Below are positions 21,708-26,829 of a stretch of 64,000 nucleotides of DNA, piece after piece. A model generated the notes under the pieces. It was not told where the DNA came from and ran no database searches. It worked only from the letters and a program-made list of their open reading frames with translations. Origin of the DNA: Luteolibacter luteus (GTDB lineage Bacteria; Verrucomicrobiota; Verrucomicrobiia; Verrucomicrobiales; Akkermansiaceae); contig NZ_CP051774.1 of the NCBI RefSeq assembly GCF_012913485.1, positions 3,286,001 to 3,350,000 of the forward strand, read 5' to 3'. A program made the position numbers and the translations under genes. Each line of letters starts with the position of its first letter. Position 1 is the first letter of the stretch.

Positions 21708-23195
21708 ATGGATGATCCCCGCTCCCGCACCGGCTCGATGCTGGGCGACTACCGGCTTGAAAATCTGATCGGGGAAAGCCCCATCACGCTCACTTGGCTC
21801 GCCGAACAGGCGTCGATCCGCCGGCCGGTGGTGCTCTTCGAACTCAAGCCGACCGCGCTGAACCGGCGGGAGGATTTCCTGGCAGACATCCGCGCGAAGG
21901 CCGCCGTCGATCATCCTTTGGTCGGCTCGGTGTATGAGGCCGTTTCCACCGACGAGCACTGCTACGTCACCCTCGAGCGCCTGCCGGGATCATCTCTGAT
22001 GGACCGCATCCGGGCGAAGGAAGCGATCAAGCCGGCGCAGCTCGCCAATATCCTGCGCCGCGTGGCCGATGCGAACCTGGCGCTGGAGTCGGAGAAAATT
22101 TGCACCGCCTCGCTCGGGCCCGACGATATCTTCGTCGACTCCCACGCGGTGGTCCGCGTCGCGAATCTTGCCCGTGCCGAAGAGCGTTCGCCGACCCGCT
22201 CCGCGGAAGACATCGTCGCCTTGGGCAAAGCGCTGCCACGCTTGGTGGCGGACGGTCATTCCGGCGCCTCCCGCATGATCACCCTGCTCGCGTGGATGCG
22301 TGGGGAGGGCTTGGATCGCAGCCTGACATGGGAGGAAGTGCGGGGCTATGCCGAGCAAATCGAGCAGCAGCTTTCCGGGCACCCGATGGCGACAGCGCCG
22401 AAGACCACGCGGGTCGAGCCGCGCAAGTCGCCATTGCCGCTGATCCTCGGGGTGGCAGGGATTGTTTTCCTCGGCGGGATCGCGGCCCTCGCCCTGCGGA
22501 GTTCGGGCTCGAGCAAGAATGCCACGATGTCGCTGCCACCGCCGGTCGATGTGCCCGCAGGTGGCCATCCTTTGCCGGATGGCGGCACGGGAAATCTCCC
22601 GGCCTTTTCGCTTTCCGGCCATGAAGTGACCATCGGCGAGTATGCCGAGTTTCTTGCCGCCCTGTCCGCCCTCGCTCCGGAGCGCCGGACTGCCTACGAC
22701 CATAAGGATCAACCCGCCAGCAAGCAGGACCACGAGCCCGAGAGCTGGACGGTGATGTTTTCCTCGGCCAAGACCGGCAGCGAATGGGAGGGCCGCGCCA
22801 TCACGACCTCCCATCCGGTGGTGAATGTCGATTGGTGGGATGCCGCCGCCTATTGCGAGTGGAAGCGCTGCCGCCTGCCTACCCAGGAGGAATGGTTCGC
22901 AGCCTTGCGCTTGAATCTCGCGGATCCTTCTTCGCTGCGACCTGCCAGCTGGGCTCCGGTGCCCGAGCTGCCACCTACCGATACCACGCCCTCGGGCCTG
23001 AGCGGCATGGCTGGCTCCGTGTCCGAATGGACCTCCAGCCTTTCCCTGAATCCGGCGAATCCCCTCGGCGAAAAAAGCTGGGTGATCATCGGCGGATCGC
23101 ACCTGAACCCCGGGAATGGGGCTCTCACCCGCGAATGGGTGCTGAACCGCAGCCTGCGTCGACCGGATCTCGGATTCCGGGTGGTGGAGAAGTAA
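21708..23195 (+). CDS. Pseudokinase fused to an inactive formylglycine-generating-enzyme-like domain
   Basis: A 495-residue protein. Residues about 12-235 follow a Ser/Thr kinase fold (LGDYRLENLIGESPITLTWL, YVTLERLPGSSLMDRIR), but the HRD and DFG motifs are missing: the corresponding stretch reads SLGPDDIFVDSHAVVRVAN. Residues about 247-265 are a membrane helix (LILGVAGIVFLGGIAALAL). Residues about 290-495 are an FGE-sulfatase-type lectin-like domain (VNVDWWDAAAYCEWKRCRLP, MAGSVSEWTSSL, DLGFRVV). The paired Cys residues used by true FGE in the GGSW...R segment are absent. Both domains look catalytically dead, so a ligand-sensing or scaffold role is inferred. Confidence 0.75.
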   Translation: MDDPRSRTGSMLGDYRLENLIGESPITLTWLAEQASIRRPVVLFELKPTALNRREDFLADIRAKAAVDHPLVGSVYEAVSTDEHCYVTLERLPGSSLMDRIRAKEAIKPAQLANILRRVADANLALESEKICTASLGPDDIFVDSHAVVRVANLARAEERSPTRSAEDIVALGKALPRLVADGHSGASRMITLLAWMRGEGLDRSLTWEEVRGYAEQIEQQLSGHPMATAPKTTRVEPRKSPLPLILGVAGIVFLGGIAALALRSSGSSKNATMSLPPPVDVPAGGHPLPDGGTGNLPAFSLSGHEVTIGEYAEFLAALSALAPERRTAYDHKDQPASKQDHEPESWTVMFSSAKTGSEWEGRAITTSHPVVNVDWWDAAAYCEWKRCRLPTQEEWFAALRLNLADPSSLRPASWAPVPELPPTDTTPSGLSGMAGSVSEWTSSLSLNPANPLGEKSWVIIGGSHLNPGNGALTREWVLNRSLRRPDLGFRVVEK

Positions 23196-23255
23196 GGAAG
23201 GGGCGCTTTCAGAGGTTCCCGCTGCCATGGAGGCCCGGGGTGAAGCCGTTGCCGT

Positions 23256-23387
23256 ACAAGGGAAGGCCGCCGAGGTCCCACCCCCGGCGGCCAAATCATC
23301 TACCCTTTAATACCCACACCCATGGGCAGGGAATCTGACTTTGTGCTGTTCACCCTTACATGAAGACTGACGCAGTGCGTGGTCTTC
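23256..23387 (-). ncRNA. Candidate small RNA, copy 1 of a three-copy family
   Basis: A predicted RNA of about 130 nt read on the minus strand, in the gap between the FGE-like and flavoenzyme genes. It begins with a hairpin GAAGAC...GTCTTC (23382-23387 with 23362-23367) with an inner ACGCA/TGCGT stem, continues through an invariant core TAAGGGTGAACAGCACAAA, and ends in the GGCCGCC/GGCGGCC hairpin (23265-23292). In this copy the CATG before the hairpin is lost, which fits a transcript starting at GAAGAC. The T-tail after the terminator is weak (TTCCCTT). The function is unknown. Confidence 0.6.
23265..23292 (-). terminator. Terminator hairpin of small-RNA copy 1
   Basis: GGCCGCC at 23265-23271 pairs with GGCGGCC at 23286-23292, extended by further G-C pairs around the conserved loop TCCCA (plus-strand reading). 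The following minus-strand tail is only partly T-rich. Confidence 0.5.
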
Positions 23388-23392
23388 AAAGG

Positions 23393-23422
23393 GATAGACC
23401 CTTCAGCTTTTCAGACGTTCAA
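23393..23422 (-). promoter_or_regulatory. Promoter of small-RNA copy 1
   Basis: On the minus strand: TTGAAC (23422-23417), an 18-base spacer, then TCTATC (23398-23393). The same boxes and exact spacing occur in the other two copies while the spacer sequences differ. Confidence 0.55.
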
Positions 23423-23518
23423 AGATTCTGAGATTTTTTTGGAAATCTCGGGAAATGGACCTGCAATCCTTCCCTGATTTTCCGCCCCGTGACTTCGCGC
23501 GGCCACCCCTCATCCCGC

Positions 23519-23654
23519 AAAAGGAGAAGGCCGCCGGGTCCCACCCCGGCGGCCTTTAAATCATCAACCCTTTGATGCCCACACCTATGGACAGGGAATC
23601 CGACTTTTTGTGCTGTTCACCCTTACATGAAGACTGACGCAGTGCGTGGTCTTC
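23519..23654 (-). ncRNA. Candidate small RNA, copy 2 of a three-copy family
   Basis: A predicted RNA of about 135 nt on the minus strand, 267 bp from copy 1 in the same orientation. The 5' hairpin is perfect and extended (GTCTTCATG 23649-23657 with CATGAAGAC 23626-23634, inner ACGCA/TGCGT). The invariant core follows, then a variable segment and the longest terminator stem of the three copies. It lies directly downstream of the flavoenzyme gene on the same strand but has its own promoter-like boxes. A short open frame (MKTTHCVSLHVRVNSTKS) crosses the hairpin and core and is an alternative reading. Confidence 0.65.
23529..23554 (-). terminator. Terminator hairpin of small-RNA copy 2
   Basis: A 10-bp GC stem built on GGCCGCC (23529-23535) and GGCGGCC (23548-23554) with loop TCCCA on the plus reading; read on the minus strand it is followed by TTCTCCTTTT. 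This is a good intrinsic terminator. Confidence 0.7.
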
Positions 23655-23659
23655 ATGAT

Positions 23660-23689
23660 CATAGACCATCAACCTAAGTGGACGTTCAA
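23660..23689 (-). promoter_or_regulatory. Promoter of small-RNA copy 2
   Basis: Minus strand TTGAAC (23689-23684), 18-base spacer, TCTATG (23665-23660). It matches a sigma-70-like arrangement and predicts a start at about 23653-23655, at the foot of the 5' hairpin. Confidence 0.6.
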
Positions 23690-23725
23690 AGATTCTTTAA
23701 AAAGTCTGCGAAAGTTTTTCGGGGC

Positions 23726-25105
23726 TTATCTGGCCGGGAGCCGGACGCTCTGTGGATGGCGGATCCGGTCCTCTGGATCGAGCTTCGCCTTGAGTGCTTG
23801 CAACCGGGTGTAAGTCTCTCCAAAATAAGAAGTTTCCCAGTGCGGTAGCCGCGGATCAGGATAGTTCCGGTAGTGCCGTTGGATCCCCGCATCGGAGAGC
23901 GCCTGTCGGACCGCGGCGTGTCCCGCGGCAAGTTTCGCCGGGATCTTTCCTTTCTCCCAATACGCCTGAAGTTCCCCAAGAAAGGGAAAATCGCGATGCG
24001 GATACGCCGATTCGGCACCCCGGGCGATGGCACCGCCCAAGGTATTCACTTGGAAAATCAGACCCGGCGTCTCCCGGACCGTGGCGCAAATCCCGCCCGC
24101 CGCGGATTTCAGGTCCTCATAGCTCCGGTAAAAGCCCCCGGATACATTGTCGAAGGGCAGGGGACCAGGCCGGCCCTCGTAGCGGTTGAGCGAATTCGCG
24201 AGCGGCTTGCTTAGCGCACCCTTCGAGGAAAAGCCTGCCTGAAACAGGGCCTTGGTCGCGGCGGCGAAGGCTGGACCCTCCGCGGATTTGGTGGAGGTCA
24301 GCAGCACCGTGGCCTGGCTGCCATTCAGAATCACGGCGGAGAAACAGGGCTCGGGAAGCGCGGCGGCAATCTCGAACCAGCGTTCCAGACGGCGCGCGAG
24401 TCCCGCGGCGTCGAGCCCCTTTGCCGTGAACTTGCGGCTCGCCAACATCGGCGGAGCCGGGCGGGTCTCGAAGGTGAAGGAAGTCGCGATCCCGAAATTT
24501 CCGTTTCCGCCACCACGGCAGGCCCAGAGAAGTTCCGGTTCATCCCGCGAATCGTGGACCTCGCCATTCCCATCGACCATCCGGACTTGGATCAGATGAT
24601 CGCAGGTCAGCCCGAACTCACGGGAGAAGAGGCCATAGCCGCCGCCGAGGGTGAGCCCCGCCAAGCCGACCCCCCCGCATGATCCTGCAGGGAGTAGCCG
24701 CCCGCGTGATAGCAGCCAGGAGTAGCAGTCCTTCAGCTTGAGGCCCGGACCGGCCGTGAAGTGGAAGCTGCCTTTTTCTAACAGACGCTCCGACATCCCG
24801 GAAAGCTCCACCACCAGGCCACCCTCGTTCAGACTGTAGCCGTGGAAAGCATGGCCGCCGCTCTTCACCGCCACTGGCAGGCCATTCTCCTTTGCATGAC
24901 GGACCGCCGCGATCACATCGGCTTCGGTGCGGCAGCAGGCGATCTTCGCCGGCTTCAGGATTACTGCGGAATTGAAGGGCTGCCGGGCTTCCTCATAACC
25001 GGCATCCCCGGGCTGGAGGTAGCGCGGTGCCATCTTCTCCTCGCCACGCGCCGGCAGCGCCGCCAGAGACAGGCCTAGAAACGCACGGCGGGAAATGGGC
25101 GACAC
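23726..25105 (-). CDS. Tat-exported FAD-linked oxidoreductase of the berberine-bridge type
   Basis: A 459-residue flavoenzyme. The N-terminus MSPISRRAFLGLSLAALPARG is a Tat signal. The FAD_binding_4 domain spans about residues 45-215 with two attachment residues for bicovalent flavin: His85 in KSGGHAFHGYS and Cys143 in GSCGGVGLAGLTLGGGYG. The C-terminal berberine-bridge segment ends NYPDPRLPHWETSYFG and KLDPEDRIRHPQSV. Family members oxidise carbohydrates or alcohols with O2, which fits an exported sugar oxidase. Small-RNA copy 2 lies 70 bp beyond its stop on the same strand. Confidence 0.88.
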   Translation of the reverse strand: MSPISRRAFLGLSLAALPARGEEKMAPRYLQPGDAGYEEARQPFNSAVILKPAKIACCRTEADVIAAVRHAKENGLPVAVKSGGHAFHGYSLNEGGLVVELSGMSERLLEKGSFHFTAGPGLKLKDCYSWLLSRGRLLPAGSCGGVGLAGLTLGGGYGLFSREFGLTCDHLIQVRMVDGNGEVHDSRDEPELLWACRGGGNGNFGIATSFTFETRPAPPMLASRKFTAKGLDAAGLARRLERWFEIAAALPEPCFSAVILNGSQATVLLTSTKSAEGPAFAAATKALFQAGFSSKGALSKPLANSLNRYEGRPGPLPFDNVSGGFYRSYEDLKSAAGGICATVRETPGLIFQVNTLGGAIARGAESAYPHRDFPFLGELQAYWEKGKIPAKLAAGHAAVRQALSDAGIQRHYRNYPDPRLPHWETSYFGETYTRLQALKAKLDPEDRIRHPQSVRLPAR

Positions 25106-25204
25106 GGAGTCATGCTTCCACGGCTCTTCCCAAAGACAAGCTTGCGGGTCTGCGGTTCTGATAGAGCATCCGTCCTGTGAAGGGTGTGCTGCGGATCTCC
25201 AGTC

Positions 25205-25879
25205 ATGAAAAGCTCCCCGAACAGTTCTGGAATAAAGTCCGCCATCGTCAGATGGATCGTTCTTGGCGGAGGGCTTTGCCTCTATGTGGCTGCCCTTCTT
25301 CTTGCGGGCAAAGCGCTGCGCGAAAGCCGGGTGATTTTTCTAGTCGTCCCTCTTCTGGCCATCCTGCTGCCGCTTCCGCTGTTAGCCGTCCTTTCGAGGA
25401 TCTACAATGTCGTGATGGGCGTGACCCTGGATGAACCGGTAGGCCCGGCGACTTCACGCGAGATCGGCGGCAGCCCGGCACTCGCCGGATATTTGTCGGA
25501 CTTGATCGCGGAGAGTCCGGGATCGGATGGCTACCTGTGCTCCATCGAACTGTTCTTCGATGGGAACGAAGAAATCGGTTCGATTGCAGCGAACCTCACC
25601 GACCATCCCGGACTGGTTGCCTTCCGGGAATGCCTGATGGAGATCCGCAAAAGGGCGGAGGTGGAGGCGGTGCTGTTAGGCGTGGTCGATTTTCCTCCGG
25701 GTGAATGGCCTTACGTGGAGACGATCCTCGTCTTTACCTCTGCCGCCCCTGAGGAGGTCTCGGCATGGGCTGAAATCATGGCACCGGATGAGGTGGGAGC
25801 CGGTCTCCGGCACAAGACTTTCGCGGGAATGCCTGCCTGCCGTCCCGACATCCAGCCGGTGCATCTGTGGTGGGACTGA
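25205..25879 (+). CDS. Hypothetical membrane protein with two N-terminal helices
   Basis: A 224-residue protein beginning MKSSPNSSGIKSAIVRW. Two hydrophobic helices lie at about residues 14-35 (WIVLGGGLCLYVAALLLA) and 43-65 (VIFLVVPLLAILLPLPLLAV). The soluble C-terminal part is acidic with WPYVETILVFTSAAPEEVSAW and ends QPVHLWWD. No known family is recognised. The start at 25205 is preferred over 25184 because it puts the charged residues directly before the first helix. It converges with the next minus-strand gene across small-RNA copy 3. Confidence 0.65.
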   Translation: MKSSPNSSGIKSAIVRWIVLGGGLCLYVAALLLAGKALRESRVIFLVVPLLAILLPLPLLAVLSRIYNVVMGVTLDEPVGPATSREIGGSPALAGYLSDLIAESPGSDGYLCSIELFFDGNEEIGSIAANLTDHPGLVAFRECLMEIRKRAEVEAVLLGVVDFPPGEWPYVETILVFTSAAPEEVSAWAEIMAPDEVGAGLRHKTFAGMPACRPDIQPVHLWWD

Positions 25880-25937
25880 TCCGGTGGCATACCAAGCCAG
25901 CCGTCAGCTATTGGCGAAGTGCTGGAGCGATCCCCCG

Positions 25938-26076
25938 GAAAAAGGAGAGGCCGCCAAGTCCCACCCTGGCGGCCTCCAGATTTTCATCCCTTATCGTGCC
26001 CACACCCATGGGCGGGATTCCAATCGTTTTTGTGCTGTTCACCCTTACATGAAGAGCCACGCAGTGCGCGGTCTTC
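25938..26076 (-). ncRNA. Candidate small RNA, copy 3 of a three-copy family
   Basis: A predicted RNA of about 138 nt on the minus strand between convergent genes, 2.4 kb from copy 2. It keeps the 5' hairpin (TCTTCATG 26072-26079 with CATGAAGA 26048-26055) although the inner stem is re-paired with different bases, the identical core TAAGGGTGAACAGCACAAA, and a GCCCA/TGGGC small stem. The terminator shows an A-T pair where copy 2 has G-C, a compensatory change. Outside these elements the sequence has diverged clearly, so the conservation is not a recent duplication. Confidence 0.65.
25949..25974 (-). terminator. Terminator hairpin of small-RNA copy 3
   Basis: GGCCGCCA (25949-25956) pairs with TGGCGGCC (25967-25974); loop TCCCA conserved; minus-strand tail TCTCCTTTTT. 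This is a convincing intrinsic terminator for leftward transcription. Confidence 0.7.
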
Positions 26077-26081
26077 ATGGT

Positions 26082-26111
26082 CATAGACTCCTTGCCTCCA
26101 CGGGCGTTCAA
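26082..26111 (-). promoter_or_regulatory. Promoter of small-RNA copy 3
   Basis: Minus strand TTGAAC (26111-26106), exactly 18 bases, TCTATG (26087-26082); the spacer is unrelated in sequence to those of copies 1 and 2. Confidence 0.6.
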
Positions 26112-26190
26112 TGATCCGGACAAATTTTCCGAATTTCTAACAAAAGGGTAGCTGCGGGGGATCGTTCTTCAGGGTGATTGATGCCGTGTG

Positions 26191-26829
26191 TTAGAGGGCG
26201 TCCTTCATCGCAGCCCGCCGCCTCTTCATCGAGATGGCCATCCAGCCGATCAAAAAGACTGCGGCGAGCGACCATAGGATCTTTCGACCGATGATCGTGG
26301 AACGAGCTTTGGTGACCCAGTCCCGTTCGGGTTCCGTATCCGGGATTGGCAGGGCACGGCCGGTGGTGGACCAGAGTTGCTGGATCCTGCTTTCGTCGAG
26401 CCACTCGAGTCCCCATCCACCCTCCGGACTGCGGCGAATGAGGTATCTTCCCGGACCCTTCAGAGCAGTGGTGTAGCCGGAGAAGGACTGTCTCGAGGTC
26501 ATCTCCATCATCGGCTTCTTCGTCATCGCCAGGACTTCGATCGCCTTGTGTTCGTGAAAGCGGAGCAGCAGCGGCGGATGGAAGTATTCGTAGCGGACCG
26601 TCGGCTTCACCCGGGGGAAGACCTCATCCAGCGGCTTCTCCCATGCGTCGCTGAGCTCCTTCCAATTGTGCGGCAGGCGCTGGTGCTCGTCTTCGTGGAA
26701 CTTGACCGACGAAGCGATGTTCATCAGCGCCACGCGTTCCGGGGTACTTTGGGTCAAAGCCGGTGCGCTGGCGACGCTTGCCCACAGACAAGCGGCCGAG
26801 ATGAAGAACAATCTTAGCTCCGATCTCAA
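26191..26829 (-). CDS. Hypothetical exported protein with a C-terminal membrane anchor
   Basis: A 212-residue protein. It has a signal peptide (residues 1-24, ending ASAPA) and a C-terminal helix about residues 185-203 (ILWSLAAVFLIGWMAISM) followed by the basic tail KRRRAAMKDAL, giving a periplasmic domain anchored at its end. The segment LMNIASSVKFHEDEHQRLPHNWKEL resembles the post-helix part of type II secretion pseudopilins (helix, then a proline-containing turn), but no prepilin cleavage site is present. No family is recognised. Small-RNA copy 3 lies downstream. Confidence 0.65.
   Translation of the reverse strand: MRSELRLFFISAACLWASVASAPALTQSTPERVALMNIASSVKFHEDEHQRLPHNWKELSDAWEKPLDEVFPRVKPTVRYEYFHPPLLLRFHEHKAIEVLAMTKKPMMEMTSRQSFSGYTTALKGPGRYLIRRSPEGGWGLEWLDESRIQQLWSTTGRALPIPDTEPERDWVTKARSTIIGRKILWSLAAVFLIGWMAISMKRRRAAMKDAL

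Follow-up and report, generated by a model that had tools for sequence, protein, structure and literature searches.

Small RNAs that resemble the genes described below are known from several systems. In enterobacteria, rybB and micA are preceded by the sigma-E boxes GGAACTTTT and GTCAAA (PMC1804206). In Fusobacterium nucleatum, which lacks both Hfq and ProQ, FoxJ is a sigma-E-dependent small RNA of ~156 nucleotides (nt) with a putative terminator, formerly considered the 5' untranslated region of the next gene (PMC11005410). The CcsR (cuckoo) RNAs of Rhodobacter sphaeroides are several related small RNAs lying side by side under alternative-sigma control; RNase E releases CcsR1-4 from a single transcript headed by a DUF1127 gene (PMC10253847). 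Here we describe a family of predicted small RNA genes with three copies in a 64,000 nt stretch of Luteolibacter luteus (assembly GCF_012913485.1, contig NZ_CP051774.1, positions 3,286,001 to 3,350,000 of the forward strand), hereafter the window. Judged by sequence comparison, the three blocks represent a single RNA family, new but of a familiar kind, whose members occur within the GTDB family of the window.

A first-pass annotation of the window had pointed to three related minus-strand blocks at 23256-26111, and both re-reading and alignment found them there. As it had described, all three blocks carry TTGAAC, 18 nt and TCTAT, then a GAAGAC hairpin, an identical 19-mer TAAGGGTGAACAGCACAAA (23340-23358, 23607-23625 and 26029-26047) and a GGCCGCC/GGCGGCC stem. 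The window holds the 19-mer three times and 0 of 100 shuffles have it, even when three mismatches are allowed; no direct-repeat family in the window is longer than that of the blocks (105 nt, 75-77% identity). Both gaps that bear them are indeed flanked by convergent open reading frames (ORFs): 21708-23195(+) and 23726-25105(-) around the first gap, both with Pfam domains (kinase/FGE and FAD-oxidase), and 25184-25879(+) and 26191-26829(-) around the second, neither with a Pfam domain. Copy 1 has lost the CATG upstream of the hairpin (TTTGAAGAC) as reported, and this loss does not place the transcription start as had been proposed. No tRNA or tmRNA was found in the window.

The window copies define type A of the family. 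Their features are given below, with scores from a covariance model (CM R1) built from 43 of 88 copies after dropping those at least 84% identical to a kept one; copies 1-3 are among the 43 sequences. ECF stands for extracytoplasmic function.

23396..23423, minus strand: copy 1 putative promoter, TTTGAAC-N17-GTCT, ECF-like (sequence and strict pattern match in the whole-genome scan)
23257..23392, minus strand: copy 1 predicted RNA gene, type A, three stem-loops (CM R1 109.3 bits; fold z -4.7, equally low in 1 of 200 shuffles)
23344..23362, minus strand: copy 1 core CATGTAAGGGTGAACAGCA (sequence and conservation)
23265..23292, minus strand: copy 1 predicted terminator stem-loop, GGCCGCC...GGCGGCC, with a T-poor tail (sequence; missed by the terminator scan)
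23663..23690, minus strand: copy 2 putative promoter, TTTGAAC-N17-GTCT (sequence and strict pattern match)
23520..23659, minus strand: copy 2 predicted RNA gene, type A (CM R1 97.3 bits; fold z -4.8)
23611..23629, minus strand: copy 2 core CATGTAAGGGTGAACAGCA (sequence)
23527..23556, minus strand: copy 2 predicted intrinsic terminator (terminator scan)
26083..26112, minus strand: copy 3 putative promoter, TTGAAC-N17-GTCTAT (sequence)
25941..26081, minus strand: copy 3 predicted RNA gene, type A (CM R1 72.7 bits; fold z -5.6)
26033..26051, minus strand: copy 3 core CATGTAAGGGTGAACAGCA (sequence)
25946..25977, minus strand: copy 3 predicted intrinsic terminator (terminator scan)

The family is larger than the three copies first proposed. 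A DNA search of the L. luteus genome (6.41 Mb, one contig) found two members beyond the window, at 3174637 (+) and 3937534 (-), which we call types B and C; a sixth match covers the terminator part only, and the covariance model likewise finds five members. Types A, B and C have the core and the promoter boxes in common and differ in stem-loop 2 and in the tail. With copy 2 as query, 21 of 57 relatives gave a match at E <= 0.01, including the genome itself and all 17 other congeners; one BLAST match, in G031, was not confirmed by the covariance model. By that model, the RNA is present in 18 of 18 genomes of the genus. A core-pattern scan of a named genome collection returned 63 stretches, all with names from Verrucomicrobiota, among them Luteolibacter, Haloferula, Roseibacillus and metagenome-assembled genomes of Akkermansiaceae. 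After removal of duplicates, 89 distinct copies lie within three mismatches of the 18-nt core. One of them, L042, is truncated by a contig end and was left out of alignments and folds; L071 and L072, with odd cores, were left out of model building.

Across the GTDB family, the covariance model matches 85 of 195 sampled genomes and 9 of 16 genera at E <= 0.01. The match in G149 (genus g3, E 0.008) is a false positive, since it lies at the end of an apparent coding sequence and has no core; its exclusion leaves at most 84 genomes and 8 genera, the weakest other matches including G024, G058 and G109 (E 2e-4 to 7e-4). Wider samples returned matches in this same GTDB family only: 7 of 188 genomes of the class, G149 included, and 51 of 288 genomes of the order at E <= 0.001, with no match in the 20 listed genomes of genus g3. 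Scans of more than 40 genomes used stricter filters, at which weak matches are lost. The first-pass annotation had recognized no Rfam family, and Rfam 15 at gathering score gives 0 matches in the window and in 14 loci, most of them holding other copies; an E-value scan of 23200-26200 gave five matches, all far below cut-off. The core string was found in no paper in a literature text search, and among the matches listed for small RNAs of this group, judged by titles and the beginnings of abstracts, nothing was found.

Covariation carries the case for a structured RNA. When 117 matches, of which 112 are distinct, are aligned by fitting them to the model, 85.5% of pair cells are kept and 26 of 29 pairs show changes on both sides. 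Such changes fill 274 cells, compared to 82 in shuffles and 26-87 in slid controls, and none of 500 shuffles reaches any of five covariation measures. Because this alignment was fitted to the model, a plain MAFFT alignment was counted as well: both-side changes occur in 20 of 29 pairs, and again 0 of 500 shuffles match the data on all five measures. Thus covariation in homologues, the lack of which had been named as grounds for rejecting an RNA family, is strong. In the register of the model, only about half to three quarters of the rows are paired in the interior of stem-loop 1 and in portions of stem-loop 2; by our own reading, type A has a three-base loop and an extra bulge. Overall, comparison shows three covarying stem-loops, a terminator stem, a near-invariant linker, CAUGUAAGGGUGAACAGCA, and the boxes GAAC-N17-GTC.

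All but the first letters of the linker lie outside these helices. More specifically, CATGTAAGGGTGAACAGCA directly follows stem-loop 1, which its first letters close, and its per-position conservation is 93-100% over the 112 distinct rows. In several divergent paralogues GTAAGGGT and ACAGCA are constant and the 1-3 nt between them vary, while five weaker matches (L173-L175, L177 and L178) deviate further from this bipartite core.

The pairs of the terminator stem are kept in 99.9% of cells across the 112 rows. Most informative of all, some genomes have, at the same place, an entirely different stem with a UUCG, GAAA or GCAA loop instead of the GGCCG stem. A stem of 9-14 pairs lies downstream in 89 of 89 copies, L042 among them cut by the contig end, a count that comes from a best-stem picker without shuffle control. 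In the window, the exchange of a terminator pair between copy 2 (G-C) and copy 3 (A-T) was confirmed. The terminator scan detects copies 2 and 3 and misses copy 1, whose tail is T-poor. In many type A copies a conserved CTTGTAC, in place of a T run, closes the sequence behind the terminator stem (23254-23260, minus strand, in the window).

The promoter boxes T[T/C]GAAC-N17-GTC are kept in 83 of the 89 copies. The remaining six comprise one with an 18-nt spacer, one with GAC for GTC, three without boxes and one that is apparently rearranged. The three without boxes (L064, L094, L097) belong to a Roseibacillus-like group, in which the RNA and its core are kept and the ECF-like boxes are lost. 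A strict form of the pattern occurs at 49 places in 10 genomes and its reversed form at one; by our count, 32 of these 49 places are copies of this RNA. No sigma-70-like promoter was found in 23100-26300. Because GAAC and GTC are common to the sigma-E boxes of rybB and micA, we infer that an ECF, sigma-E-like factor recognizes the family promoter.

Among the 17 strict matches outside the RNA is a site next to mutL, shared by eight genomes, in which the boxes are kept and the spacer has diverged. This site reads TTTGAAC-N17-TGTCT or GTCT and is preceded by AACAAGAAATTTCT (G000:C1:4437622 in the L. luteus genome, that is L217:1623; L223, L225 and L229-L233); it lies between mutL and a gene without a Pfam domain (Pfam was run on one genome), in a gap of ~300 nt with a conserved inverted repeat in seven of the eight genomes. 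It may mark another non-coding RNA controlled by the same sigma factor; three of its loci have no Rfam match. A second shared site, AACAAGAAAATC...TTTGAACACC...TGTCT, occurs with a diverged spacer in three genomes (G000:C1:6196980, or L218; L221; L222). L224 (G015:C60) and L227 (G003:C9) are strict promoter matches with similar downstream sequence and are perhaps orthologous. Five loci with other promoter sites have no match in Rfam.

We give an even chance to the reading that these loci are independent genes for an ECF-controlled, Hfq-free regulatory RNA of ~113-145 nt, with the linker as its recognition element. An ECF (sigma-E-like) sigma factor would transcribe the RNA genes under stress, perhaps envelope stress, and the RNA would act in trans without Hfq. 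The linker would serve as recognition element, most likely through short base pairing with several mRNAs, and the paralogues could provide dosage or different timing. No Hfq (PF17209) was found in any of 57 genomes of the window's order, the control being positive in 5 of 14 genomes; because of this absence, the RNA should act without Hfq. Base pairing is the leading idea because of the analogy with FoxI and FoxJ in F. nucleatum, which has neither Hfq nor ProQ. It is also the weakest step, and the linker may bind a protein instead.

Several results weigh against this mechanism, the first of them the predicted folds of the linker. The first-pass annotation had described an exposed core, which is only partly borne out by the modelled structures, and least for the window copies. 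Among copies folded singly, the linker is open in a type B, a type C and a copy from another genus, and AAGGG or more of it is paired with the tail in the three window copies. Over all copies, with folding begun at stem-loop 1, UAAGGGUGAACA is wholly open in the minimum-energy folds of 26 of 67 non-A copies versus 0 of 21 type A copies. The mean unpaired value of the linker is 0.50 in the 21 type A copies and 0.61 in the 67 others (whole RNA, 0.32-0.33), and that of its GGG is 0.09 in type A versus 0.52 in the others. Since the linker is only partly open, the word 'exposed' is weakened, and with it our confidence in the reading given above. The remainder of the first-pass interpretation fared better: the comparisons support a family of RNA genes that carry promoters and terminators of their own and match nothing in Rfam, and copy number, promoter type and exposure of the core are revised.

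The same direction is indicated by searches for a pairing partner. A 21-mer antisense search of the L. luteus genome with three mismatches recovered only the five RNA genes. With an antisense 13-mer and one mismatch, 8 genomes hold 19 sites outside the RNA genes compared to 28 for a control pattern, and pairwise comparison of the 19 stretches gave no pair by blastn, nor did blastp of their 253 open frames. A recurrent antisense partner of the core was thus not found at 12 or more of 13 matching positions. In addition, a near-invariant linker of 19 nt exceeds the usual length of an mRNA seed.

The sigma factor itself does not stand out either. We surveyed 45 sigma-gene stretches of the L. luteus genome (44 of its 51 PF04542 matches and one PF07638-type gene) and found T[TC]GAAC-N16-18-GTC upstream of one, with three looser cases. 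The one full case is a strict match situated 34 nt ahead of the ECF gene (PF07638) at G000:C1:5380345; autoregulation of this gene was considered and rejected, the match being taken as chance, as its orthologue in G015, although 91% identical, lacks such boxes. The PF07638 protein is present at above 70% identity in 4 of 18 genomes of the genus, whereas the RNA is present in 18 of 18. Sigma-factor genes are very numerous: PF04542 matches number 51 in G000, 66 in G015 and 58 in G007, and these three genomes also hold PF07638-type ECF factors, one followed by a kinase-like gene. Finally, the other repeated promoter sites precede no recognized envelope gene.

The best-surviving alternative, which we regard as a serious possibility short of probable, is that the core is a protein-binding site. 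The RNA would then act as a titrator of, or a scaffold for, a dedicated RNA-binding protein, or would bind the ribosome, in the manner of CsrB/RsmY or 6S RNA, without pairing to mRNA. That the linker hardly varies at all from paralogue to paralogue and from genus to genus would suit such a site, as would the lack of a recurrent antisense partner and the two constant parts, GTAAGGGT and ACAGCA, separated by a variable 1-3 nt, which fit a bipartite protein site; moreover, the GGGUG of the type A core recurs in the apical CCAUGGGUGUGGG and again in the loop of the terminator. However, the GGGUG of the terminator loop is not kept in all genomes, and the distant matches L173-L175, L177 and L178 break the bipartite core too. 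Each RNA has a single core, whereas CsrB and RsmY carry many sites, and the RsmY model scores 14.2 bits against a threshold of 57. A more specific and, in our estimate, unlikely form of protein binding is that the bipartite linker GUAAGGGU-(1-3 nt)-ACAGCA docks an undescribed RNA-binding protein, the RNA being one half of a new stress-induced ribonucleoprotein. If true, such a ribonucleoprotein would stand in for Hfq-based regulation in these bacteria.

The gene neighbourhoods bear on a different alternative, namely that type C acts in cis, as a 5' leader or attenuator, on a gene for a SurA-like peptidyl-prolyl isomerase (PPIase) and that the other copies are derived stand-alone decoys. Type C lies between an RsmA-NUDIX fusion gene and the PPIase gene, and in 11 of 18 type C loci, one of them from another genus, the ORF called downstream in the same orientation is that of the PPIase. 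A terminator lies between RNA and PPIase gene, which are 352 nt apart in the L. luteus genome. In five other type C loci a longer opposite-strand ORF was picked at this place instead (one, L054, was read), and one locus is cut by a contig end. The last, L058, from another genus, has different neighbours, which speaks against a leader. So does the position of the window's type A copies in convergent gaps. Type B is followed by a same-strand ORF family in 8 of 12 loci, but at a distance of ~600-1250 nt, and an opposite-strand gene intervenes in both type B loci that were read. We therefore consider a leader origin very unlikely. Still less credible, with hardly any chance in our view, is a mobile or REP-like (repetitive extragenic palindromic) repeat with incidental promoter and terminator, for although several similar, partly clustered copies per genome would suit it, the stems covary, the promoter boxes are conserved and the gene neighbourhoods are kept between species, the last arguing also against a transposon end (no insertion-sequence library search was made).

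Other neighbours were recorded around the three types. The fusion gene adjoining type C (L060:4080-5519, plus strand) joins RsmA (KsgA, PF00398) to a NUDIX domain, and beyond the type C neighbours lies what we take, by eye, to be a metG-like gene. In 7 of 12 loci, type B comes after a gene for an M48 peptidase. Of 9 genomes tested, 7 have type A near acnA, an FAD-oxidase gene or a kinase/FGE gene, and G006 and G010 have no match to any of these in the stretch examined around type A. The envelope-type genes next to types B and C are weakly consistent with an envelope-stress regulon.

Whichever partner the linker has, the family offers a strongly conserved entry point: its promoter probably marks an ECF regulon, its core could provide bait for the partner, and a riboregulator in these bacteria would have to function without Hfq.

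RybB and MicA use Hfq, which is absent here. They are otherwise alike in being small intergenic RNAs with an ECF-type promoter carrying GAAC and GTC, a likeness in manner of working only, and they measure ~70-80 nt (PMC1804206), compared to ~113-145 nt for the present family, which also differs in having no Rfam match. CsrB and RsmY share a stem-loop architecture and G-rich motifs with it; in contrast, the core here has no GGA, and the score of the RsmY model stays below its cut-off, as noted above. Promoter boxes and a terminator stem accompany every single copy in the window, unlike the arrangement of CcsR1-4. For FoxI and FoxJ, the source describes a C-stretch seed, whereas the core here is G-rich, and reports expression, sigma dependence and targets, whereas the present family is known from its sequence. 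A likeness to FoxJ lies also in the arrangement: type C stands upstream of the PPIase gene as FoxJ, in that source, stands upstream of its next gene.

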